From Bacteroidaceae bacterium (GTDB taxonomy: Bacteria; Bacteroidota; Bacteroidia; Bacteroidales; Bacteroidaceae): a stretch of DNA of 41,284 nucleotides. Location: positions 1 to 41,284 of the forward strand of contig JAGCGS010000036.1 in assembly GCA_017649485.1 (NCBI GenBank). Direction: 5' to 3'. The notes below the pieces were generated by a model. The model had not been told where the DNA came from, did not search any database, and saw only the letters and a program-made list of their open reading frames with translations. Positions 1,755-40,214 of this stretch are shown one piece after another; positions within the stretch are counted from its first letter, which is position 1, and every line of letters begins with the position of its first letter. A program made the translations under genes and the position numbers.

Positions 1755-4511
1755 TCAAAAAAGTTTGAGCTTATTCTCTCTGGCTTTCTCTAAAGAGAGT
1801 AATTCTGATTGTTTATCTGTCACTTCATCGCGCAAATGAGCATATTCCTTGCTAAGATTGTCCACCAATTCGTGCTTGAGTGATGGATTCATCAGCCTGG
1901 CAGCCACCACTGGATTCTGCGAAGCATCCTTGAGGTGTACCACAGGAGCATGATAGACAGGCGCAATTTTCAGGGCGGTATGCAACTGCGATGTGGTGGC
2001 ACCACCTATGAGCAATGGAATGTCTAATCCTGCCAGCTCCAACTCTCTTGCCACATGCACCATCTCATCAAGCGAAGGAGTAATCAGTCCACTTAAGCCT
2101 ATCATATCCACCTGCTCACGGATGGCAGTGTGCACAATCTCTTCAGCGGGAACCATCGTACCCAAGTCGATAATCTCATAACCATTACAAGCCATCACTA
2201 CAGATACAATATTCTTGCCAATGTCATGCACATCGCCTTTCACGGTGGCAAGCAACACCTTACCAGCTGATGGCATACCAGCTTGTTTCTCTGCCTCAAT
2301 ATAAGGCTGAAGGATGCTCACAGCCTTCTTCATGGTACGCGCAGTCTTCACTACTTGAGGCAAGAACATTTTGCCTGCACCAAAGAGGTCGCCTACCAGA
2401 TTCATGGCAGACATCAAGGGACCTTCGATAATGTCCACAGCTTTAGGATAATGCTGTAATGCCTCCATAAGATCAGTCTCCAGATAATCAACAACACCTT
2501 TGGTAAGTGCATATTGCAAGCGTTCATCTACAGAGGTATTGCGCCAGGACTGAGCCACTTGAGATTGACCATTATTCTCTACCCTCTTTCCATCCTCCTT
2601 AGCCTTCATGATTTCCTCTGCTAATGCAATGAGCCTTTCAGCAGCATCTTTTTTGCGGTTTAACACCACATCTTCAATACCTTCCAACACATCAGCAGGA
2701 ATATCGGAGTACAATACAGAAGTGGATGGGTTCACGATGCCCATGTCCATACCCGCCTTGATAGCATGATAGAGAAACACGGCATGCATCGCCTCACGTA
2801 TATAATTGTTACCACGGAAAGAGAACGACAGATTACTCACACCTCCACTGACATGGCTACCCTTCAGATGCTCACGTATCCATGCTGCGGCACGAATAAA
2901 ATCTATGGCGTAAGCGTCGTGTTCAGGCATACCTGTTGCCACAGCCAAAATATTGGGGTCGAAGATAATATCTTGTGGAGGGAAACCCACTTGTTCTGTA
3001 AGCAGCCTAAAAGCTCTCTCACAAACGGCTATCTTGCGTTCAAAAGTATCAGCCTGACCTTGTTCATCGAATGCCATCACCACCACAGCAGCTCCATATT
3101 GCCTCAGTCTATGGGCATGGGTCAGGAAACTTTCCTCACCCTCTTTCAATGAAATGGAGTTTACCACACATTTCCCTTGAAGACATTGCAAACCCGCCTC
3201 TATTACCTCCCATTTCGAAGAGTCAATCATCACAGGCACACGTGCTATTTCAGGCTCAGAAGACAACAGGTTCAAGAAATGTGTCATCTCTTGGCGAGCA
3301 TCCAGCAATCCGTCATCCATATTGATATCCAGCATCTGAGCACCATCTTCCACTTGTTTGCGAGCTATGCCCAATGCCTCATCATAGTTTTTCTCTTTGA
3401 TGAGACGCAAGAACTTACGGGAACCTGCCACATTGCATCGCTCACCGATATTCACAAAGTTAATCGCTGGTTTCACCTCCAATAGTTCCAAGCCTGAAAG
3501 CTGCAGATAAGGAGACGGCTGCACAGGCACATGAGGTTTGGCATCTTTCACAAATGGCTGATAGGCTTTGATATATGCATCTGTAGTGCCACAGCATCCA
3601 CCCACGATATTTACCAACCCCTCATCAAGATAGGTCTTGATCACTGATGCCATGTGTTCTGGCGACTCATCATACTGACCCAAACTATTGGGCAATCCGG
3701 CATTCGGATAAGCACTGATATAATATGGTGCATGTTCCGCCAGCTGACGAAGGAAAGGTTTCATCTGCTCAGCACCAAACGAACAGTTCAGCCCTATGGA
3801 AAATATATCTGCATGAGCCACAGATGCCAAAAAAGCATCGAGTGTCTGACCTGAGAGTGTACGTCCTGCCACATCTGACACCGTAACAGACAACATCAGC
3901 GGCACTTTCCTTTCCATAAGCCTCATCGACTCCTCTGCCGCATAAATAGCAGCTTTGGCATTGAGTGTATCGAAAATGGTTTCCACCAACAAAGCATCCA
4001 CCCCGCCCTCTAACAAGGCACACATCTGCTCTATATAAGCCTGTGTTAGTTCGCTGAACGTCAGAGAACGTAAAGCAGGATCATTTACGTCAGGACTCAT
4101 CGAGCAAGTCTTGTTGGTTGGTCCAACAGAGCCAGCCACAAAACGAGGTTTATCGGGAGTGGAATAACGGTCTGCCAACGAGCGTGCCAAACGGGCACCC
4201 GCCAAGTTCATAGCACGAACCTGAGCTTCCATACCATAATCAGCCTGGCTCACTGAAGTAGCATTAAATGTATTAGTCTCAATGATATCAGCCCCCGCCT
4301 GAAGATACTTCTCATGAATCTCGCCAATGACATCAGGCCTTGTAAGATTAAGCAAATCGTTGTCGCCTTTCAACTGACGGTCAGCATTGGCAAACAACTC
4401 CCCACGGAAGTCATTCTCTGTCAAGTTGTATTGCTGAATCATGGTTCCCAGTGCACCATCGAGCACCAAGACCTTAGTGTTTAAACATTCTTGCCATTTC
4501 TCGTTTGTCAT
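1755..4511 (-). CDS. metH: Cobalamin-dependent methionine synthase lacking the reactivation domain
   Basis: 918 residues. It transfers the methyl group of methyltetrahydrofolate to homocysteine through methylcobalamin. The N-terminal homocysteine domain carries the zinc cysteines C243 (GLNCSFG) and C306/C307 (GGCCGTT). A pterin-binding domain follows ([24 protein letters not shown]), then the helical cap, then the B12 domain with D-x-H-x-x-G; the axial histidine is H762. The protein ends just after the B12 domain, whereas the E. coli enzyme (about 1,227 residues) continues with an AdoMet-binding reactivation domain. Bacteroidetes MetH proteins are often of this short type. The start overlaps the end of smpB by 38 bases, implying coupled translation. 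No cobalamin riboswitch precedes this operon. Confidence 0.95.
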
Positions 4512-21490: not shown

Positions 21491-22606
21491 ATGAAACGAT
21501 TTTTAATAACATTGACGATGATATGCTCTGTATTATACGGATTCTGTCAGCAATATCCTGTCCAGGAGTTGCAAGCATGGCGCAGACAGATAGCACAACA
21601 GGAAGGCAAGGCAATGGTAAACCTGCCGCTGTCCACACTGAAACAAAAGACTATAAACTGGTGGGATGGTAACCGCGTCATGGTTCTGCTGGACATGAAT
21701 GACGGCAGTGATGAGTTAGGCCTTTATGATGTTTGGGCTGGTGCCATCGTAAATACGATTCAGGTGAAAGGGGCATCAGGTACTATCAAAGATACAGACA
21801 TGGTGCTTTCACTGCATCAAATAGGCGATATGATGCTGATGGTGATGACGGAGAAAGGTAAAATATTCGACATCTTGATGGAGGTGAAGAACAATCAGCC
21901 TGTTTGGGCGTTCATCGACCTGCACGATGTGTTGGACGGAGTATATCAATCCACCGACAATAAGCAGTATGTGTTTGGAATGCCAGATATGTATGTAGGG
22001 GTGGACAGATACACACGAGATCCCGGCATCTTTGACCTGACTCGTGAGGAACGTGATGATGCCAACGAATGGAGCTATATTATAGAATATGGTGCAGGAA
22101 GAGTAAGTCACGGCAGACCTGTGGATGACCCTGCAAAGATAAATGTTCCTGGTGCAGGAGGCGCAGGAGCCCTGATGGGACCGATGATGTGGGGTCTTAA
22201 CATGACTGAAGAGGGATTGGCTGGTGAGGTGCTGCACGATGAGCCTACTGTGGATCACGAACCTGCAATTACTGAAAGATTTGAGTTAAAGAAAACACAA
22301 ACCCCATTCAAGGGCGTTAATGGCAGATGGCCCTTCACCTCGTTGAGACCGTTGAACCGCCAGATGCTGGTGCATTTTCCTAAAGAAGTATTGAGGTTGA
22401 TGAGGAATGAGATTTATGCACGTCATGGGGTAAAGTTCCGGAGCGATGCTGCCATCCAAGCATACTTCGACCGTCAACCATGGTATCAGGCAACCAATAA
22501 GACCACGGCACTGACAGGTTTGGAGAAGCTGAACGTGAGCTTGATCAAGGCTGTGGAAGACAGAATAACCGAAATGGAAAAGGAATTATCTAAATATAAC
22601 TTATAA
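21491..22606 (+). CDS. Secreted YARHG-domain protein
   Basis: 371 residues from the ATG at 21491 (a GTG two codons earlier is less likely). Signal peptide ends near GFC-QQ. The central part has repeated beta-like segments with no motif I recognise. The C-terminal ~80 residues hold a YARHG domain (RNEIYARHGVKF, then YFDRQPWYQ), an extracellular module of unknown role often found in envelope proteins. Its stop and the next gene's start share one base (TAATG), so the two proteins are probably made in fixed proportion. Confidence 0.8.
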   Translation: MKRFLITLTMICSVLYGFCQQYPVQELQAWRRQIAQQEGKAMVNLPLSTLKQKTINWWDGNRVMVLLDMNDGSDELGLYDVWAGAIVNTIQVKGASGTIKDTDMVLSLHQIGDMMLMVMTEKGKIFDILMEVKNNQPVWAFIDLHDVLDGVYQSTDNKQYVFGMPDMYVGVDRYTRDPGIFDLTREERDDANEWSYIIEYGAGRVSHGRPVDDPAKINVPGAGGAGALMGPMMWGLNMTEEGLAGEVLHDEPTVDHEPAITERFELKKTQTPFKGVNGRWPFTSLRPLNRQMLVHFPKEVLRLMRNEIYARHGVKFRSDAAIQAYFDRQPWYQATNKTTALTGLEKLNVSLIKAVEDRITEMEKELSKYNL

Positions 22607-25569
22607 TGCTAAGTAAGCAGAATATTAACCGATTATACTTGCGCGACACACAGTTTGCGAAACTGATGACCAAGCGCATCTACAACGTATTGCTCATCGC
22701 AAATCCTTATGATGCTTTCATGCTGGAGGACGACGGACGCATCGAGGAGAAGATTTTCATTGAATATTCATCGCTCTCGCTGCGCTATCCGCCTCGCTTC
22801 ACACAGGTTACCACCTATGAGGAGGCCATCGAGCAGTTGGCGATGCTGGAATACGACTTGGTAATCTGTATGCCTGGTACGGGCGACAATGAGACCTTCG
22901 GCGTAGCGCGTAGCATTAAGATTCAATATCCCAACATCCCCATGGTGATTCTGACACCATTCAGTCACGGCATCACGAAACGCATGGCGAACGAGGATTT
23001 GAGTGCATTCGACTATATGTTCTGCTGGTTAGGCAACACCGACCTGATCGTGTCGATCCTGAAGCTCTTAGAGGATAAGATGAACCTGGAGCACGATGTG
23101 CAGGAGGTAGGTGTACAGGTCATCCTGTTGGTAGAGGACGGCATCCGCTTCTATTCGTCCATCCTACCCAACTTATACAAGTTCATCCTACAACAGAGCC
23201 AGGAATTTGCCACAGAAGCGTTGAATGAGCACCAGCGTACCCTGCGACTGCGTGGGCGACCCAAGATTGCACTGGCACGTACTTATCAGGAGGCTGTAGA
23301 TATCTACGAGCAGTATAAGAATAATATATTAGGTGTAATTACCGATGTGCGCTTCCCACAAGAGAAAGGACAGGAGAAAGACCCGATGGCGGGAATCAAG
23401 TTCTGCCAATACGTGCGTAAGAACGACCCCTTCGTGCCTCTCATCATCCAGTCGGCTGAGCAGGAGAATACCTTGTATGCCAAGAAGTTCAGGGCTGCTT
23501 TTATCGACAAAAACTCGAAGCACATGGATCTTGACCTGCGCAAGATTCTGAGGGAAAAGGTGGGCTTTGGCGATTTCGTATTCCGCAATCCCGTCACCCA
23601 TGAGAAGATAGCCACAGTGAAGAATCTGAAGGAATTGCAGAACATTTTGTTTGCTATTCCTACCGAGTCGTTCCTCTACCACATCAGCCGCAACCACATG
23701 AGTCGCTGGCTGTACTCACGAGCCATCTTCCCCATTGCCGAGTTCCTGAAACCCATCACCTGGAACAGTCTGCAAGATGTGGATGCCCACCGCGAAATCA
23801 TCTTCGACGCCATCGTGAAATACCGCAAGATGAAGAACCAGGGCGTGGTGGCAATCTTTAAGCGCGACCGTTTCGACAGCTACTCTAATTTTGCCCGCAT
23901 CGGCGAAGGCTCATTAGGTGGCAAGGGACGTGGCTTGGCATTTATCGACAACTTCCTGAAAAGACATGCCGAGTTCGACGAGTTCGAGGATGCTCGCATC
24001 ATGGTGCCCAAGACAGTAGTGCTGTGTACGGATGTGTTCGACGAGTTCATGGCTACCAACAATCTCTATCAGATTGCATTGTCCGACGCTGATGATGAGA
24101 CCATCCTGAAGGTATTCCTCAAAGCAAGGTTGCCTGAAAGGTTAGTGGAGGACTTCTTCACCTTCTTCGATGCGGTGAAGTCGCCTATCGCCATCCGTTC
24201 GTCATCATTATTGGAGGACTCACACTACCAGCCGTTTGCAGGTATCTATAGTACTTACATGATTCCTAATCGTGATGATAAATACGAGATGCTGCGTATG
24301 CTGAGCGATGCCATCAAAGGTGTATATGCCTCAGTGTATTTCAAGGACTCGAAGGCGTATATGCAGGCTACGAGTAATGTGATCGACCAGGAGAAGATGG
24401 CTGTAATCCTGCAGGAAGTGGTGGGTACACAGTATGGCGACCATTATTATCCTTCGTTCTCTGGCGTTGGTCGTTCACTGAATTATTATCCGTTGGGTGA
24501 CGAGAAACCAGAGGAGGGTACGGTGAGTCTGGCATTGGGCTTGGGCAAGTATATCGTGGATGGTGGCTTGACACTGAGATTCTCACCTTATCATCCCAAC
24601 AAGGTACTACAAACCAGCGAACTGGATTTGGCATTGCGTGAGACACAGACGCGTTTCTATGCCTTAGACATGACTAATACAGGACAGAATTTCTCCATCA
24701 ACGACGGTTTTAATTTGCTAAAACTAAGTGTGAAAGATGCTGAGAAAGATGGCTCACTGAACTACATCGCCTCAACATTCGACCCATACGACCAGGTGAT
24801 TCGCGATGGCATCTATCCTGGTGGCAGGAAGGTGATTACTTTTGCGAATATCCTGCAACACGACATCTTCCCCCTAGCCCGCATTCTGCAACTCTCACTG
24901 AAATATGGTCAGGAGGAGATGCGCCGACCTGTGGAGATTGAATTTGCCGCCAGGTTAGCTAAAGAACAGAATGAGGTAAGCACATTCTACTTGCTGCAAA
25001 TCAGGCCTATCGTGGATGCCAAAGAGAATCTGGAGGAAGACCTGTCACTGATACCAGAGGATCAATTGTTGCTGAAGTCGGTGAACTCACTGGGGCATGG
25101 TATCATGAACGAGATACAGGATGTGGTGTATGTGAAAACGGACAACTATAACGCCCAGAATAACCAAGCGATAGCATGGGAGATTGAAAAGCTGAATCAG
25201 CAATTCCTGAATGAGGATAAGAATTATATCTTGATTGGTCCTGGACGCTGGGGAAGCAGTGACACCTGGTTAGGTATTCCTGTGAAATGGCCTCACATCA
25301 GTGCAGCTCGCATCATTGTGGAGGCTGGTCTCACCAACTACCGAGTGGATCCAAGTCAAGGAACGCATTTCTTCCAGAATCTGACTTCATTCGGTGTAGG
25401 TTATTTCACCATCAATGCCTATATGAACGATGGCATATATAACCAGGAGTTCCTGAATGCCCAACCTGCCGTACAGGAAACAACCTACCTCCGACATGTG
25501 CATTTCGACTCGCCACTTGTGGTGAAGATGGATGGCAAGAAGAAAACAGGTATTGTGATGATGCCGTAA
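22606..25569 (+). CDS. Two receiver-like domains fused to a PPDK-type ATP-binding domain
   Basis: 987 residues, no signal peptide. Residues ~26-150 form a receiver-like domain whose phospho-Asp position is Met (VICMPGTGD), so it is degenerate. Residues ~168-320 form a second receiver with an acidic pair (LVEDG), a phosphoacceptor at D247 (ITDVRFP) and a Lys (FIDKNS). Residues ~425-810 match the ATP-binding domain of pyruvate phosphate dikinase/PEP synthase (GSLGGKG 435-441; RSSSLLEDS 531-539; LQIRPIV). The swivelling phospho-His domain and the PEP/pyruvate barrel are absent. A C-terminal ~170-residue part (GPGRWGSSD, DPSQGTHFFQNL) is not one I can name. Likely a signalling or phosphotransfer enzyme, not a PEP synthase. 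Confidence 0.85.
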   Translation: MLSKQNINRLYLRDTQFAKLMTKRIYNVLLIANPYDAFMLEDDGRIEEKIFIEYSSLSLRYPPRFTQVTTYEEAIEQLAMLEYDLVICMPGTGDNETFGVARSIKIQYPNIPMVILTPFSHGITKRMANEDLSAFDYMFCWLGNTDLIVSILKLLEDKMNLEHDVQEVGVQVILLVEDGIRFYSSILPNLYKFILQQSQEFATEALNEHQRTLRLRGRPKIALARTYQEAVDIYEQYKNNILGVITDVRFPQEKGQEKDPMAGIKFCQYVRKNDPFVPLIIQSAEQENTLYAKKFRAAFIDKNSKHMDLDLRKILREKVGFGDFVFRNPVTHEKIATVKNLKELQNILFAIPTESFLYHISRNHMSRWLYSRAIFPIAEFLKPITWNSLQDVDAHREIIFDAIVKYRKMKNQGVVAIFKRDRFDSYSNFARIGEGSLGGKGRGLAFIDNFLKRHAEFDEFEDARIMVPKTVVLCTDVFDEFMATNNLYQIALSDADDETILKVFLKARLPERLVEDFFTFFDAVKSPIAIRSSSLLEDSHYQPFAGIYSTYMIPNRDDKYEMLRMLSDAIKGVYASVYFKDSKAYMQATSNVIDQEKMAVILQEVVGTQYGDHYYPSFSGVGRSLNYYPLGDEKPEEGTVSLALGLGKYIVDGGLTLRFSPYHPNKVLQTSELDLALRETQTRFYALDMTNTGQNFSINDGFNLLKLSVKDAEKDGSLNYIASTFDPYDQVIRDGIYPGGRKVITFANILQHDIFPLARILQLSLKYGQEEMRRPVEIEFAARLAKEQNEVSTFYLLQIRPIVDAKENLEEDLSLIPEDQLLLKSVNSLGHGIMNEIQDVVYVKTDNYNAQNNQAIAWEIEKLNQQFLNEDKNYILIGPGRWGSSDTWLGIPVKWPHISAARIIVEAGLTNYRVDPSQGTHFFQNLTSFGVGYFTINAYMNDGIYNQEFLNAQPAVQETTYLRHVHFDSPLVVKMDGKKKTGIVMMP

Positions 25570-33489: not shown

Positions 33490-33867
33490 TTATTGCAATG
33501 CTTCATAAAAATTTCTGCGTCCATCTTCCAAAATACTGAAGGCGCGAGGCATGATGTCTTTCACATCAGGAGTCGTGTCGAGCAGGATCTCGAAAAGCAC
33601 CCATACAGAATCAGAGGTAACAATCAACTTAATCACTTTCATTGTCTGATTCACCTTATTGGTCGCTTCTAAGACCAGCTCACGATTATCCTCAGTCACA
33701 TCATAGATGCCGGGCATCGCCAGTTGGAAAAACTCATCATCGTCCTTATCAGAAAAGAACACATAAGTGGTCATCTGATACTTAAACACGATGTTCCCTC
33801 TTTCGTCCACCTCGGGACAGAACCCTTCCTTGCGCAGGAAATCAAGTACTAAATCTTTTGCGTTCAT
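33490..33867 (-). CDS. YbjN-like small protein paired with the kinase-AAA+ gene
   Basis: 125 residues. The pattern of a short N-terminal helix (DLVLDFLRKEGFCPEVDE), beta strands carrying NIVFKYQMTTYVFF, and a central helix with EDNRELVLEATNKVNQT matches the YbjN/type III secretion chaperone-like fold. It is acidic and soluble. It begins 24 bases after the kinase-AAA+ stop, so the two are almost certainly co-transcribed. It may act as an adaptor or substrate-binding partner of the ATPase; this is inference from context. Confidence 0.72.
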   Translation of the reverse strand: MNAKDLVLDFLRKEGFCPEVDERGNIVFKYQMTTYVFFSDKDDDEFFQLAMPGIYDVTEDNRELVLEATNKVNQTMKVIKLIVTSDSVWVLFEILLDTTPDVKDIMPRAFSILEDGRRNFYEALQ

Positions 33868-33891
33868 AACTCAACATGGTATTAATTTAAC

Positions 33892-35697
33892 TTATTTAAA
33901 TCCTATTCTCGGTCTTGTCAGGTTACTCCGTTCGGTATTCTCCATCTTGCGGCGTATATCCTCATAGATCTGCATGGTATCTTTTCGCAGTGAAGGTCGT
34001 GTACTCTTCACTGATGTCTCCAACAACTCCTCCGTAATGTCCTTATCGGTGAAGGCAGCCACCATAGCCGCATCATTTACCACGTAAGCAATGTCGCTGG
34101 CAATATAGCCATCCGACATTTCCGACAGCTTCTCCGCATCAATTTCGTTAGCGTTGTACGGCCTGCCTTTCAAGTGCATCAGAAACATCTCCTTACGCGC
34201 TTCTTTATCTGGCAATGGCACATACACCTGTTTGTCAATACGGCCCGTTCGCAACACGGCAGGGTCAATCTTGTCAGGTCTGTTCGTAGTGCCTACCACG
34301 AAGATGCCCCGCTGTGCACAGTTGTTCAGCTGTGTCAGGAACTCGTTTACCTCCCCTGAAGAATACTGTGCGGCTGGGTTCGAACGGTCTGGCACCAACG
34401 CATCGAACTCGTCGAAGCAAATCACCACAGGTGCATTGTCTGCAGCCTGCTTGAACAGTTGGGCAATCTTTTCCTGCGAACCGTGAACAAACGAGCTCGC
34501 CAAGTCGGACGACTTCACGAATATATAGTTAAAACCCGTTTCCTCGGCAAATTTCTCTGCCACAAACGACTTACCACAACCCGGAGGGCCATAGAGCAAC
34601 ATGCCGTTTGGCGTTGTCAGGCGATACTTCTCCGCTTTCTCCTTATTCTTAATCACAAAGATGATCCGTTGAGTCAGATAGTCCTTCAACTCCTGCATAC
34701 CCGCGATGTCCTTGAATCCTTGTCCGTTGCCCCGTTTGATCTCAAACTCCACCTTGTTCGGACTCTGATCCATATAACTGTCATCGTCATGCCTTGTCTG
34801 TCCCCCACCCTGCTGAGGTCTATCCTCCTGACGATGCTCCGTTTCCTTGGGCATCTCCTTTGAATCCAGGTCATTAAAAATCTGTTGAATATGATCATAT
34901 CTGTCAGCAGTAGGCAAAGCCATTCCCTTGGCGAGAATCACCTGCGTACGTTTCCCTACGTTCATGATGCTGAAATCAATGGGTTCCGACTTGCGTTTCT
35001 CCTTCAGCAGCATCCCCTTTCTGCCCCTGCTCATGCTCTCAGAAAGTTCCATCATCCATGGCTTATTGCCAGTCAGCATGGTATATAGCACCGCTGTAGC
35101 CGAAAAGATGTCGCTCTGCTCGTCATACAAGCCAGCGAACGTTTCGTTGGCACAGTAGAACACATCCAGATCCACCGTATCGAAAGGCACTGAACCTGAG
35201 CAGCGTTCTGAAGCATGACCGAGGTCGATAATCTCAGCCTCTCCTGTCAGCGCATTGATAAACACATTGCGGGGTGTAATGTCGTTATGTATGATGCCAT
35301 GCTGATGCATGAAAAACAAGCCTTCCAGCATCTGACGGTAGATGGCAAGAGCCTCCTCCTCTGGGAAAGCACCTTGCTGCAACTTCTCATTGATCAGTGT
35401 GCCATTGATGAAGTCTGTAATCAGGTAAGGGAAACGACCTTCGTCCGACTGATACTCACCCTCCTCCACAAAGCTCACGATACGCCTATGCTTCAGCTGT
35501 TTGCTATAACCTATTTCATGAACCTGTCCATCCTTCCCCACCAACTTTGCCGGCATCCTTTTGAGGGCAAACAATTTAAGGAAAAAACGGTTTCGCTCTT
35601 CATCGCGCACCTCGTATGTCTCAGTATAAAGATTCTCCTTGACCAACCTGATCACGGTATAACCACCAATCTTCTGTTCACTTGCAAGTGTTGCCAT
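33892..35697 (-). CDS. Ser/Thr protein kinase fused to an AAA+ ATPase
   Basis: 601 residues. Residues ~10-275 form a eukaryote-like kinase: ATP-site Lys K41 (FFLKLF), catalytic D139 in IHNDITPRNV (HND replaces HRD), N144, and metal D158 (DLG instead of DFG). The key residues are kept, so activity is likely. A polar linker (~285-325, Gln/Gly/Asp-rich) leads to a classic AAA domain: Walker A GPPGCGKS 370-377, Walker B D429/E430 (CFDEFD), sensor N472, and arginine-finger positions R483 and R486 (LRTGRID). The AAA part is close to the FtsH/p97 group in style but has no protease or membrane segment. I know no characterised protein with this order. Confidence 0.9.
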   Translation of the reverse strand: MATLASEQKIGGYTVIRLVKENLYTETYEVRDEERNRFFLKLFALKRMPAKLVGKDGQVHEIGYSKQLKHRRIVSFVEEGEYQSDEGRFPYLITDFINGTLINEKLQQGAFPEEEALAIYRQMLEGLFFMHQHGIIHNDITPRNVFINALTGEAEIIDLGHASERCSGSVPFDTVDLDVFYCANETFAGLYDEQSDIFSATAVLYTMLTGNKPWMMELSESMSRGRKGMLLKEKRKSEPIDFSIMNVGKRTQVILAKGMALPTADRYDHIQQIFNDLDSKEMPKETEHRQEDRPQQGGGQTRHDDDSYMDQSPNKVEFEIKRGNGQGFKDIAGMQELKDYLTQRIIFVIKNKEKAEKYRLTTPNGMLLYGPPGCGKSFVAEKFAEETGFNYIFVKSSDLASSFVHGSQEKIAQLFKQAADNAPVVICFDEFDALVPDRSNPAAQYSSGEVNEFLTQLNNCAQRGIFVVGTTNRPDKIDPAVLRTGRIDKQVYVPLPDKEARKEMFLMHLKGRPYNANEIDAEKLSEMSDGYIASDIAYVVNDAAMVAAFTDKDITEELLETSVKSTRPSLRKDTMQIYEDIRRKMENTERSNLTRPRIGFK

Positions 35698-35738
35698 AAT
35701 CTGTTACTCTATAATTATTGTGGTAAATATAGTAATTG

Positions 35739-35746
35739 CAAATATA
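35739..35746 (-). promoter_or_regulatory. -7 box of the kinase-AAA+/YbjN operon
   Basis: TATATTTG on the minus strand, 41 bases before the ATG. A clear TTG at 19-21 bases is not seen, and a second box (TATCTTTG) lies close upstream near 35766-35759. Confidence 0.4.
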
Positions 35747-36418: not shown

Positions 36419-37753
36419 ATGGCAGAAAGATTATTTAAAAGGAAAATCTACACGCAGCTTCTGAAGTGGAAACATGAGTCAAACGGCAAGAGTGCATTAC
36501 TTGTTGAAGGCGCAAGACGTGTCGGGAAATCAACAATTGTGGAGGCTTTCGCTAAGAACGAATATGAGTCTTATCTAATCATAGACTTCAACAAGGCTTC
36601 TAAAGCTATCAGGGATTTGTTTAACGACCTGATGGATCTTGATTACCTGTTTCTATATCTCCAGACGGTATATCATGTAACCCTGAAAGAAAGAAAATCG
36701 GTCATTATCTTCGATGAGGTCCAGAAGTGCCCGATGGCACGTCAGGCTATCAAATATCTGGTGGAAGACGGCCGTTATGACTACATTGAGACAGGCTCTC
36801 TGATTAGCATCAAGAAACATACTAAGGGAATCACAATACCCAGCGAAGAAGACAGGATTCAGATGAACCCCATGGATTTTGAAGAATTCCGCTGGGCTTT
36901 GGGAGACGAGGCTACTGTTCCGCTTTTGCACAAGTTTTGGGAACAACAACACGCACTTGGAGTTGCCCATAGGGAAATGGCACGTAATTTACGCCTTTAC
37001 ATGTTGGTAGGGGGAATGCCACAGGCCGTCAATGCATACCTTGACAGCAATAATTTCAGCAAAGTTGACCAAGTAAAGAGACGCATACTAAAGCTCTATG
37101 AAGATGACTTTCTGAAGATAGACCCATCTAGCCGTGCGTCTGTCATGTTCCGATCCATTCCAGGTCAGCTGAGTCGAAATGCCATCAGATATGTTCCATA
37201 TTCTGCTGTCGGAAAAGTGGACGAGGAGAAAATGACAGAACTATTGAAAGCACTTGAAGACAGCAAGACGGTAAACATGTCATATCATGTAAATGACCCG
37301 CAGGTCGGAATGGGACTGACAAAAAACAAAGACCAGTTCAAGATGTTCGTCTGCGATACGGGGCTATTCGTTACGCTGGCTTTCTGGGAAAAAAGTTTTA
37401 CGGAGAATATTATCTACGAGAAACTTCTGTCTGACAAACTCCCTGCAAATCTTGGCTATGTATATGAGAACCTGGTTGCCCAGATGCTGGTGGCAACAGG
37501 CAATGAGCTGTATTACCACACATGGCCACGCGACGAGAAGCATTATTATGAGATTGATTTCCTTTTGTCTCGTGGATCGAAGCTATGTCCTGTGGAAGTA
37601 AAATCGTCTGGTAGTAGGACTCACGCCTCACTTGATGAGTTCTGCCGTATCTATTCTTCCAGAATAACATGGCGCTATTTGGTTTACTCCAAAGACTTTG
37701 CCAAAGATCAGGAGACTATCATGATACCGGCTTATATGGTGCCGTTTATTTGA
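36419..37753 (+). CDS. AAA-family ATPase with C-terminal DUF4143 domain
   Basis: 444 residues. Walker A GARRVGKS at 31-38 (K37), Walker B IIFDEVQ with D99/E100, and YIETGSLI as the sensor-1 region. The C-terminal DUF4143 part contains YENLVAQMLVATG and a PVEVKSSG strand, which resembles the catalytic strand of PD-(D/E)XK nuclease folds (D in YYEIDFLL, E/K in VEVKS). Such proteins are abundant in Bacteroidales, often many paralogs per genome, with no established role. It stands alone, between remnants, behind a 33-bp repeat array. Confidence 0.9.
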   Translation: MAERLFKRKIYTQLLKWKHESNGKSALLVEGARRVGKSTIVEAFAKNEYESYLIIDFNKASKAIRDLFNDLMDLDYLFLYLQTVYHVTLKERKSVIIFDEVQKCPMARQAIKYLVEDGRYDYIETGSLISIKKHTKGITIPSEEDRIQMNPMDFEEFRWALGDEATVPLLHKFWEQQHALGVAHREMARNLRLYMLVGGMPQAVNAYLDSNNFSKVDQVKRRILKLYEDDFLKIDPSSRASVMFRSIPGQLSRNAIRYVPYSAVGKVDEEKMTELLKALEDSKTVNMSYHVNDPQVGMGLTKNKDQFKMFVCDTGLFVTLAFWEKSFTENIIYEKLLSDKLPANLGYVYENLVAQMLVATGNELYYHTWPRDEKHYYEIDFLLSRGSKLCPVEVKSSGSRTHASLDEFCRIYSSRITWRYLVYSKDFAKDQETIMIPAYMVPFI

Positions 37754-38078
37754 AATGAAAATAAAAGCATAAGAACTGCGTTAAATGACAAGAAACGAAA
37801 AATCGTATTTCCAATAGTTACTATTCTACAGGAAATCAAGGCAGTTAGGAATGTGGAAGTTATTACATTGATTTTCGTGTAAGTCGTTATAAATTAGCCA
37901 ATTTGCGCTAATTTGCATTATTCTTGAACTTGTGAACATGGACGAATGTTGAGGCTGTTCCGTTACCAAAGTGTTACCCGCGATTGTTTGGGTAATATGT
38001 GTAGAATCGGGTAGTCTGTACAAGATTCTTTGTGGCTCGGAATAATATACATATTCGACATATTTTGCATAGCCCGGG

Positions 38079-38121
38079 ATGCTCTGAGATTGATTAATTT
38101 TGCAACCCAAATTCAGAGCAT
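38079..38121. repeat. 9-bp inverted repeat over the integrase start
   Basis: ATGCTCTGA (38079-38087) and TCAGAGCAT (38113-38121) are perfect complements with 25 bases between. The right arm contains the first bases of the integrase ATG at 38120. It could be an integrase/excisionase site or an mRNA hairpin hiding the start. The rest of 37754-38078 shows a GTTACCC/GGGTAAT pair and no gene; an element end probably lies here. Confidence 0.5.
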
Positions 38122-38188
38122 GATGAAAGAAACAAAATTCAAGGTGCTGCTGTACCTGAAGAAAGGCAGCGGGAATTCCTTCTTGTAA
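38120..38188 (+). pseudogene. N-terminal stub of a tyrosine recombinase (integrase)
   Basis: The frame reads MMKETKFKVLLYLKK and then ends within 7 codons. This opening is typical of Bacteroidetes tyrosine-type integrases of conjugative and mobilizable elements (KVLLYLKK followed by a Pro/Met-rich strand). The homology-like part stops where the left arm of a terminator hairpin begins (about 38162), so the remainder was deleted or replaced. No catalytic R-H-R-Y residues remain. Confidence 0.55.
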
Positions 38189-38202
38189 TTCTCGTTGCCT
38201 TT
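38162..38202. terminator. Hairpin terminator of the HTH gene pair
   Basis: AAAGGCAGCGGGAATT pairs with AATTCTCGTTGCCTTT over 16 positions (two mismatches that can be G-T) with a 9-base loop. T-rich sequence follows on both strands, so it can work from either side. It lies 17 bases past the stop at 38219. Confidence 0.7.
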
Positions 38203-38218
38203 TCCTCATAAGGAAGGT

Positions 38219-38527
38219 TTACTTCAGTGCTGGTACATAGTTCCGTTGCAAAAGTTCTTCCAGATCCCGTTCGCGATAGAGCATCTTGCCACAGAGCAGC
38301 ACGTATGGCATCAGCCCTTTCTGCCGATATGTGAACAATGTATGCCTGCTGACCTTCAGAAAGTCTTCAGCTTCTCTGTCGCTAATCCACCTGTCACCAT
38401 TAAGCAAGGGGCGATAGTCCTTGAATGTTTCCTTTACTTTGTCTATAGCCTCGTCAATCTCGCTGATAAAGTCAAGGATTTGCTTATCTTCCACCATCAT
38501 GCCACTTTTCCATTTTTCTTTTTCCAT
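38219..38527 (-). CDS. Excisionase-like HTH protein
   Basis: 102 residues. Acidic N-terminal helices, then a MerR/excisionase-type winged helix (WISDREAEDFLKVSRHTLFT, YRQKGLMPYVLLCGKMLYRERDL given in parts as YRQKGLMPY and LYRERDLEEL). This DNA-binding module is standard near integrases of Bacteroidetes mobile elements, where it controls excision. It is the second gene of a pair with the 38536 HTH gene, 8 bases apart. With the integrase reduced to a stub, its original role may be lost. Confidence 0.8.
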   Translation of the reverse strand: MEKEKWKSGMMVEDKQILDFISEIDEAIDKVKETFKDYRPLLNGDRWISDREAEDFLKVSRHTLFTYRQKGLMPYVLLCGKMLYRERDLEELLQRNYVPALK

Positions 38528-38535
38528 AGCCGTTA

Positions 38536-38817
38536 TCAGTTTTTCGTCATTACTTCCATTATGCTGGCAATGTCCTCAACCCGATGATAAATCCTACCCT
38601 CTATCTTGGTATAAGGCAATTCGCCTCGTTCCCGCATACTCTGTACCGAACGTTTGCTGAGGTTGAGCATGGCACACACCTCACTCGTATCGATCCATGT
38701 TCCAAGACCTTTGTTCTTCATCTGCTGTTCCTGGCAATGCAGGACTCTCAGCAGTTCTTTCATTCGTTCCATCCACTTCGTGAATGTGCTCTCGTTGATG
38801 ATTACAATTCTTTCCAT
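38536..38817 (-). CDS. HTH (excisionase-family) DNA-binding protein
   Basis: 93 residues. An N-terminal helix with basic residues, then a winged-helix DNA-binding domain: WIDTSEVCAMLNLSKRSVQS, MRERGELPYTKIEG, RIYHRVEDI. Bacteroidetes mobile elements typically carry two such tandem genes next to integrase. A TAACTTTG -7 box sits at 38875-38868. Both proteins may bind the palindromic sequence at 38967 or the repeats at 38079, which is inference. Confidence 0.8.
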   Translation of the reverse strand: MERIVIINESTFTKWMERMKELLRVLHCQEQQMKNKGLGTWIDTSEVCAMLNLSKRSVQSMRERGELPYTKIEGRIYHRVEDIASIMEVMTKN

Positions 38818-38966
38818 TTGTCTTTATTTTATCGATTGTTACTACTTGTTTACGCTAATTTCGGTTGCAAAGTTAGCCTGAGAAAACAGACTGATTTGCA
38901 TATTATGTACATAGATTTATAAACTTTTTCCCAAAGAAATGAATAGCTGGATACTTATATGAGTGA

Positions 38967-38982
38967 ATAAGTATATACTTAT
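38967..38982. repeat. 16-bp perfect palindrome in an AT-rich region
   Basis: ATAAGTATATACTTAT is fully self-complementary, and ATACTTATA is repeated directly just upstream at 38951-38959. The region 38818-39328 carries no convincing gene. It may be a recombinase, initiator or regulator site. Confidence 0.55.
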
Positions 38983-39328
38983 ACAATTATTCATTCATCC
39001 AATCATCTGGCTATTGTAACATCAATGCATTGACGATTCGGCTCCTTGATGTTTTGACATTCCAGTGACCTGAAACTTTAGTGTCGCAAGTAGTGGAAAT
39101 ACTGATGATTCAATGCACTCATGAATTCATACATTCACTAAAACATGGTCTCTGACGGCATTTGGCTGTAAAGTGGCTGCAAGTGGCGGTAGATTGCTAT
39201 TGCCCAATCAGATTAGTCACAGTACCTTTGTACCCGAAAAAGATGCCAATGGCAATGGTATGGATATATTGACAGCCCCTATAAATAGCAACCGCTTCTT
39301 GAGCGGATTATTATGTTTGCCAGAACAT

Positions 39329-39384
39329 AGCAAGGTATGTTTTCTGCTGCACGAAACTTCGTTTGCAGCGCAAAACTCCTTGCT
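39329..39384. other. Oriented nested inverted repeat, candidate oriT
   Basis: Outer arms AGCAAGG (39329-39335) and CCTTGCT (39378-39384) enclose an inner hairpin, GCTGC..AAAC with GTTT.GCAGC (39346-39369, 3-base loop). It lies about 100 bases before a MobA-type gene, which is where transfer origins of Bacteroides mobilizable elements sit. The nick site cannot be read from this alone. Confidence 0.5.
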
Positions 39385-39482
39385 CTGCCGAGGGTTGTGG
39401 CTGTCCTCCGAAGTCAGTCTGCCAGTCTATACTTGCAGTAAGCATTGAGTGATAGCTATATGTCAAACCCAAAATAACAGAG

Positions 39483-39917
39483 ATGGACAACAAGAAGAAT
39501 AAAGGCGGGAGAAATCCCAAATTAGATCCAGCGACAAATCGCTATTCCGTAAACTTCAGCAGTGAGGAAGATATGCGTTTTCTGAAGATGTTTGACCGTT
39601 CAGGCATGACAAGTAAGTCCGCATTCATCAAGGCGCGAATCTTTGGTGAGCCATTCCATGTAGTGTCATTCGACAAAAGTCAACATGAATATTATACTAA
39701 GTTAAGCGACTTTCATGCTCAGTTTCGAATGGTTGGAAACAACTACAACCAGACATTGAAGGAACTGAAGAGCCACTTTTCAGAGCGCAGAACCGCAGTA
39801 TTGGTGTACAAGTTAGAGAAGTATATGATGCAGTTAGTGCAGATTATGCATAAAGTGATAGAACTGACAGACGAATATCAGAAAAGGATACAGAAAAGTG
39901 AGAATAAGGAAATATAA
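39483..39917 (+). CDS. MobA/MobC-type relaxosome accessory protein
   Basis: 144 residues. A basic N-terminus and a ribbon-helix-helix-like domain (NRYSVNFSSEEDMRFLKMFD, then GMTSKSAFIKARIFG) are followed by helices with NNYNQTLKELKSHF, the pattern of Bacteroides mobilization protein A / BmgB-like plasmid mobilization proteins that bind oriT. The relaxase that normally follows (MobB) is absent; the next gene is a controller-like HTH. I infer a mobilization module that has lost its relaxase and now borders a restriction-modification cluster. Confidence 0.8.
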   Translation: MDNKKNKGGRNPKLDPATNRYSVNFSSEEDMRFLKMFDRSGMTSKSAFIKARIFGEPFHVVSFDKSQHEYYTKLSDFHAQFRMVGNNYNQTLKELKSHFSERRTAVLVYKLEKYMMQLVQIMHKVIELTDEYQKRIQKSENKEI

Positions 39918-39947
39918 GTGAATATAATTGTTAAATATTGGAGAGAT

Positions 39948-39980
39948 TTGCGTGTTTGTGCTAAAAAGTTTGTATCTTTG
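39948..39980 (+). promoter_or_regulatory. Promoter of the HTH-methyltransferase pair
   Basis: TTG 39948-39950, 22 bases, TATCTTTG 39973-39980, 24 bases before the ATG at 40005. The spacing is one base longer than usual. Confidence 0.5.
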
Positions 39981-40004
39981 TCCCAAATAATAGATTCATC
40001 CGAT

Positions 40005-40214
40005 ATGGACAAAGACATCAATCGGCTAAAAGTTGTTTTGGCAGAAAAGAAGAGAACGAACAAATGGTTGGCAGAACAATTAGGAGTTGCACCCTCTACT
40101 GTTTCAAAGTGGTGTACAAATGTTTGCCAGCCAAGTCTTGAGACCCTTCTCCAAATTTCAGAGTGCTTGGGGGTGAAAGCCCAAAAGTTACTTAGGGAAG
40201 AATCCGATAATTAG
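40005..40214 (+). CDS. Xre-family HTH regulator, probable controller of a restriction-modification system
   Basis: 69 residues from the ATG at 40005, which sits just after a -7 box; the longer frame from 39918 crosses that promoter. A single HTH_3 domain fills it: NKWLAEQLGVAPSTVSKWCT, then QPSLETLLQISECLGV. Its size and its position 7 bases before a DNA methyltransferase match controller (C) proteins that delay endonuclease expression, although a simple autoregulator is possible. Confidence 0.8.
   Translation: MDKDINRLKVVLAEKKRTNKWLAEQLGVAPSTVSKWCTNVCQPSLETLLQISECLGVKAQKLLREESDN

Follow-up and report, generated by a model that had tools for sequence, protein, structure and literature searches.

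The ATPase partners of ClpP that are described in PMC9753991 are Hsp100 proteins with an IGF-type loop, and the Clp ATPases, as PMC8745299 sets out, dock on ClpP through a loop tripeptide of the form (L/I/V)-G-(F/L). ClpB, which does not carry the docking tripeptide, does not dock ClpP (PMC9753991 and PMC7966870). For the proteasomal ATPases, PMC6017811 assigns the docking to a C-terminal HbYX or GQYL motif. TY-Chap1 proteins are described, in PMC9503650, with ADP-ribose conflict systems. No description of a kinase-AAA fusion architecture or of a ClpP partner outside the Hsp100 family was found in searches of open-licence PMC papers.

The window, the 41,284-nucleotide stretch of Bacteroidaceae DNA analyzed here (contig JAGCGS010000036.1), encodes such a fusion, termed KA, and a small protein, termed Y. 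Together they probably make up an unfoldase that depends on ClpP, is coupled to a kinase and does not belong to the Hsp100 family, equipped with a TY-chaperone-like adaptor. From sequence we infer its ClpP docking, degradation, hexamer formation, the adaptor role of Y and the kinase activity.

Architecture of KA and Y

KA (601 amino acids) is encoded on the minus strand at 33892..35697, as defined by the open reading frame and its translation, and matches the Pfam families Pkinase (E 1.3e-28) and AAA (E 3.4e-34). The kinase part comprises about residues 10-280 (34858..35670, minus strand), with approximate limits; the Pfam match covers residues 40-219 and the NCBIfam and PADLOC matches begin at residue 6. 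Residues 327-568 (33994..34719, minus strand), delimited by profile matches and motifs, form a classical AAA module of the Cdc48/FtsH type. The chain ends in ...RPRIGFK, within which I598-G599-F600 (33898..33906, minus strand) is the proposed ClpP-docking tail. Upstream of the gene, TATATTTGC (35738..35746, minus strand) was read from the sequence as a possible Bacteroidota -7 box, for which the consensus is TAnnTTTG.

Conservation was assessed in an alignment of 43 full-length KA-family proteins. The Hanks-type catalytic set K, E, D, N, D is complete in KA, and K41, E61 and N144 occur in 43/43 sequences, D139 in 42/43 and D158 in 41/43. H137 is also invariant, the KA motif reading HND in place of HRD. 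These intact residues suggest kinase activity. In the AAA module, the Walker A core (G370-K376), Walker B (D429/E430), sensor 1 (N472), R483 and R486 are each present in 43/43, and the pore loop, FVHG in KA, has F or Y at its aromatic position in 40/43. The first-pass annotation had described a kinase with its main catalytic residues on one chain with an intact AAA+ module. The fusion is real, as the Pkinase and AAA matches and the invariance or near invariance of K41, D139, N144 and D158 attest, and the AAA module is intact.

With Walker A and B, sensor 1, two arginines and an aromatic pore loop, KA has the features of a classical AAA unfoldase of the Cdc48/FtsH/PAN clade. The solved structures nearest to its AAA part are VCP-like or Cdc48-type. 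The AAA match is to PF00004, AAA_lid_3 stays under its cut-off, and no AAA_2 or Clp model is among the Pfam and NCBIfam matches listed; by its matches, KA is outside the Hsp100 family. By its NCBIfam scores, which are under both cut-offs, KA is neither an IetA nor a MAD6 protein.

Y (125 amino acids; 33490..33867, minus strand) lies 3' of KA on the same strand, with a spacing of 24 nt. The YbjN-like protein that had been noted at this position is present as an open reading frame of TY-Chap1/YbjN-like type: TY-Chap1 (PF22551) passes its Pfam cut-off of 27 with 28.5 bits, and YbjN itself, at 17.1 bits, is under its cut-off of 22. In the Y of locus L121 both families are under cut-off. A sequence comparison of Y with solved structures gave no homolog at E<0.4 (best E 0.49). 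The fold assignment is proposed from a single Pfam match that is barely above its cut-off.

KA is present in one copy in its own assembly (2.6 Mb, 83% complete), where the sole other match is a 698-amino-acid FtsH-like ORF; ClpP and ClpX are located together on contig C69, away from KA. The neighbors of the KA-Y pair are a 285-amino-acid ORF with no family above cut-off and a DUF4143 ATPase. The DNA upstream of KA (36419-40214) is of a mobile type, with the DUF4143 ATPase, two HTH_17 genes, a MobC-like gene and a Cro/CI-type HTH gene. The MobC-like gene (39483-39917) is 3.8 kb upstream of the KA start, with the DUF4143 ATPase and HTH genes between, and nothing connects it with the KA-Y pair. 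Elsewhere in the window (22606-25569), a 987-amino-acid protein combines a response-regulator-like domain, under cut-off, with a pyruvate phosphate dikinase N-terminal domain.

Relatives of KA and their gene neighborhoods

KA was found in 12 of 149 genomes of the genus at E<=1e-50 and in 8 of 396 genomes of the class at E<=1e-60, the window's genome being counted in both. Contigs of species genomes yielded 60 KA loci among 80 candidate stretches, all of them Bacteroidota by record title except for one Akkermansiaceae MAG (L067), and the relatives' genomes are mostly MAGs. The locus set comprises 72 KA loci, a 73rd (L002) having been left out as an FtsH-like ORF. In counting neighbors, KA and Y were imposed on the gene caller; ORFs called automatically are only approximate at some loci, and the ClpP genes of L050, L056 and L060 were placed by tblastn. 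The KA of L068 is divided over two frames.

A Y-family gene is adjacent to KA and co-oriented with it in 38 of the 72 loci, and the KA-Y pairing exceeds chance. Among the closest relatives of the window's pair (L014-L024) the pairing is found in 10 of 11 loci; in the other, L023, the contig stops ~60 nt past KA. Loci collected later have Y beside KA in L154-L157 (4/4), L164, L165, L167, L168 and L170, and Y was not found beside KA in L166 and L171-L174. The first-pass annotation would have given up its model if most homologs had no such partner. On this point the pairing holds within the window's own clade (10/11), but 34 of all 72 loci have no adjacent Y. With an intact fusion and a conserved partner in that clade, its general model of a remodeling machine with an adaptor is supported as a type.

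Three members, L010, L011 and L070, consist of the AAA part and have no kinase. At L049 (10001-17372, KA) and L070 (10779-15156, AAA-only), genes for a separate kinase, a vWA protein and a PP2C protein come next, the L049 set also including an Hsp70 gene; each of these sets reads as a phosphorylation switch with the same motor at its center. Such neighbors, and kinase residues that are conserved on a par with the AAA residues, would also be expected if KA served in kinase signaling, its AAA part merely oligomerizing and clustering the kinase and Y being a kinase substrate or inhibitor, with no unfolding involved. This explanation is very improbable, however, because L010 and L011, without a kinase, still keep both Y and the IGF tail and because the pore-loop position is aromatic in nearly all aligned sequences. 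One further AAA-only member with an IGF tail (L141, genome G129) has two dissimilar Y genes after it (217 and 132 amino acids); copies of Y thus seem to be diversifying as adaptors.

At L025-L029 the neighbor of KA is a protein of ~500 amino acids that matches TerB. An Hsp70-KA-TerB cassette occurs at L127 (plasmid pHALHY02 of Haliscomenobacter hydrossis, NC_015512.1:1753-27507), L128-L131 and L133-L136, mostly preceded by a CFI-box and a DivIC-like coiled-coil gene, and its fusions bear an IGF or VGF tail. On pHALHY02 the cassette abuts the BREX genes brxL, pglZ and brxC, so a conflict role is possible for this branch.

The BREX neighbors on that plasmid, the patchy spread over the genus and generic matches to defense kinase and AAA proteins, for example PD-T4-6 and IetA in PADLOC, would fit an anti-phage or conflict system in which KA detects infection and its kinase or unfoldase is the effector or the effector switch. 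As a reading of KA this is improbable. None of the 25 NCBIfam matches listed, of 45, attains its cut-off, no match was obtained at E<=1e-40 among 50,697 phage records, and 72,556 plasmid records gave a single match (37.6%) at E<=1e-50. No defense gene is among the scanned neighbors of the window's pair, and in 10 genomes KA adjoins the sole ClpP, which is of the housekeeping type. The anti-phage role that the first-pass annotation had entertained is thus not borne out at the window locus by the phage, plasmid and NCBIfam matches.

The KA tail and two linkages to ClpP

G599 is kept in 43/43 aligned proteins, inside a poorly conserved stretch. The motif [IVL]G[FY] falls within the last 15 residues of 58 of the 66 distinct stop-ended KAs (some of them 5'-truncated). 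Among the other ORFs at the same loci that reach 200 amino acids, 6 of 590 have it; the FtsH-like L002, two stop-less proteins and four duplicate tails were left out of this count. The eight KAs that do not have it are from L035-L039, L029, L066 and L067. In the later loci the motif is present in 17 of 23, two further tails are V-x-G-L, and L137, L138, L173 and L174 are without it. The loops of ClpX in KA genomes are VGY, VGF, IGY or IGF. KA has a tripeptide of the ClpP-docking type, but at the C-terminal tail and not in a loop. It is likely the ClpP-docking tripeptide of ClpX at the place that HbYX takes in proteasomal ATPases.

By tblastn, clpP is located directly 3' of KA, 10-14 nt past its stop, in ten loci of one clade (L050, L053, L056, L057, L058, L060, L061, L068, L072 and L073). 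No adjacent Y was seen in these ClpP-linked loci. The ten linked ClpPs form one clade nested among the ClpX-linked ClpPs of related genomes (98/98) in a tree that includes an E. coli row, and they are therefore native and not imported. The same ten genomes gave no ClpX hit (TIGR00382, E<=1e-15). The other 51 KA genomes divide into 46 with ClpP and ClpX; three with neither (L017, L030 and L040, set apart as having no strong ClpP and no ClpX); that of L054, where ClpX was not found and ClpP is present but unlinked to KA; and that of L023, doubtful on account of partial hits. With the three genomes and that of L023 treated in this way, simple gaps in the MAGs were rejected as the cause of the missing ClpX.

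Across the order, 5 of 392 genomes (at least 90% complete, save the window's own) gave no ClpX; those five match KA only through an AAA protein of 36-37% identity and FtsH-like length. The close relative L055 has ClpX beside ClpP and an unlinked KA. The absence of ClpX in the ten genomes probably reflects a single event, in one MAG clade. In the genus of this ClpX-less lineage KA is present in 17 of 121 genomes and is therefore not universal there; no new ClpP-linked case turned up among these 17.

Hits to PF07724 in 12 genomes were searched for a ClpX, ClpA or ClpC that might be hidden in the ClpX-less genomes. The readable hits are ClpB-type pieces with no IGF-like loop; L090, from the L073 genome, an atypical two-ring Hsp100 that has no such loop beyond its second Walker B motif; and the ClpX of L055. 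L091 and L092 offer no readable frame, and the weak hits are represented by L098, a sigma-54-type AAA protein. Among the readable sequences, the other Hsp100 proteins of these genomes include no candidate for ClpP docking. Position 44 of ClpP, which we take, in E. coli numbering, to be a pocket site, is Q in 16 ClpX-type rows (one a duplicate locus) and L, M or I in 10/10 KA-linked rows. The change is suggestive and, being confined to one clade, carries no weight.

A second, divergent kind of ClpP (ClpP2), 42-44% identical to the native kind, is beside KA in seven loci: L035-L039, L121 (ClpP2 at 3039-3665) and L170. In 7/7 of them Y, KA and ClpP2 form one co-oriented run. In the genomes of L035-L039, ClpP2 is the sole strong ClpP, yet ClpX is present; with those of the ten-locus clade, this makes 15 genomes that have no ClpP at E<1e-50 other than the linked one. 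Besides its run, the L121 genome has a canonical ClpP accompanied by ClpX, as well as another KA. Next to ClpP2, KA has the ending V-[QES]-G-L in 7/7 cases; the other KAs have it in 0/82, and in their fetched stretches, some of them short, no ClpP2 was found. V-x-G-L departs at its first residue from the published (L/I/V)-G-(F/L). The KA of L154, nearest to that of L121 (58% identity), keeps IGF, and its 14-kb stretch has no ClpP2. The type of tail thus apparently differs according to the kind of ClpP.

Two separate supported clades of the KA tree correspond to these linkages, the ClpP group (99/95; nine of the ten loci, L073 being a fragment, with L054 inside the group and unlabelled) and the Y-ClpP2 group (99/91; six loci, L170 not included). 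A ClpP gene therefore seems to have joined KA on two occasions, each time a different kind of ClpP. Each linkage is probably a single event, so the independent events are few. Fisher values for the tail and ClpX tallies disregard relatedness and carry no weight.

These linkages bear on a further explanation, that KA is a stand-alone remodeler, a Cdc48- or Vps4-like ring under kinase control that delivers nothing to a protease, with the IGF tail packing on the ring or binding Y and the ClpP neighbors being incidental. The VCP/Cdc48-type structures nearest to its AAA part agree with this, as do the retention of tail and Y by AAA-only members and the lack of a neighboring ClpP at most KA loci, the window's among them. 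Yet the tail type tracks the neighboring ClpP, linkage appeared in two distinct branches of the KA tree, and the ten genomes with a linked native ClpP gave no ClpX. A stand-alone remodeler is for these reasons unlikely. That the window's own ClpP is not adjacent to KA weighs against the ClpP-dependent reading. So do the probable single origin of the ClpX absence, the genomes of L054 and L055, the KAs that have no [IVL]G[FY] and the deviant first residue of V-x-G-L, the missing Y at the ten clpP-linked loci, the kinase-less members, the divided KA of L068 and the marginal Pfam match of Y. The first-pass annotation had noted that the AAA part has no protease. This is true at the window locus; it does not extend to the family, given the docking-type tail and the 17 related loci that encode ClpP beside the fusion.

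Proposed mechanism and comparison with known systems

KA with ClpP is best read as an AAA+ protease whose motor belongs to a new class. The AAA modules would assemble as a hexameric ring whose pore loops thread clients, and the IGF tail of each subunit would enter hydrophobic pockets of the cell's ClpP and hold the ring on it, a docking modeled on the IGF loops of ClpX and on the HbYX tails of proteasomal ATPases at the 20S core. Clients would be recruited by Y or by the kinase domain, and Y may bind their exposed segments and pass them to the ring. The fused kinase would phosphorylate clients, Y or the machine, and so select the proteins to be unfolded and destroyed, or tune the machine. Since ClpP and ClpX are together on another contig of the window's genome, KA and ClpX would there draw on one ClpP. 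A fuller version, in which a single chain and its partner do everything, the kinase marking, the TY-chaperone binding and the ring of the same subunit unfolding into ClpP through the IGF tail, with ClpX replaced in one clade, is tentative and somewhat doubtful; such a machine would be a Ser/Thr counterpart to phospho-degron systems.

If the ClpP-dependent reading is true, a partner with a classical AAA module and a fused kinase has captured the only ClpP in one clade of Bacteroidales, which would mean that ClpP also accepts motors of another class, by way of a single tripeptide convergently put to the same use. A Hanks-type kinase would then be placed inside a bacterial degradation machine.

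KA resembles the motors of ClpXP, ClpAP and ClpCP in its tripeptide of the (L/I/V)-G-(F/L) kind and in the ten loci where the fusion gene adjoins the sole ClpP and ClpX was not found. It differs from them in being a classical AAA protein and not an Hsp100, in bearing the motif on a C-terminal tail instead of a loop, and in having a kinase where the Hsp100s have a zinc-binding or other N-domain. The classical AAA module and the docking motif at the extreme C-terminus are shared with PAN, Mpa/ARC and Cdc48/VCP/VAT; unlike these, KA has one AAA ring and an N-terminal kinase. The KA family has IGF/IGY or V-x-G-L where PAN and Mpa/ARC have HbYX or GQYL, and its neighbor is ClpP, not a 20S core. Judged by its tail (IGFK, not HbYX or GQYL), KA is not a proteasomal ATPase.

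Y, which scores just above the TY-Chap1 cut-off, is a candidate relative of TY-Chap1/YbjN and differs from the described TY-Chap1 proteins in pairing with a kinase-AAA fusion. IetA of IetAS is, like the motor of KA, a small classical AAA ATPase; KA scores 97.7 bits against the IetA cut-off of 510 and has a fused kinase, and the gene adjacent to it is Y, with no protease gene beside KA in the window. The McsB-ClpCP system of Bacillus uses an arginine-phosphate degron, with a separate arginine kinase and an Hsp100 partner. KA likewise couples a protein kinase to a proposed ClpP machine, but its kinase is of the Hanks type and is fused to the motor.
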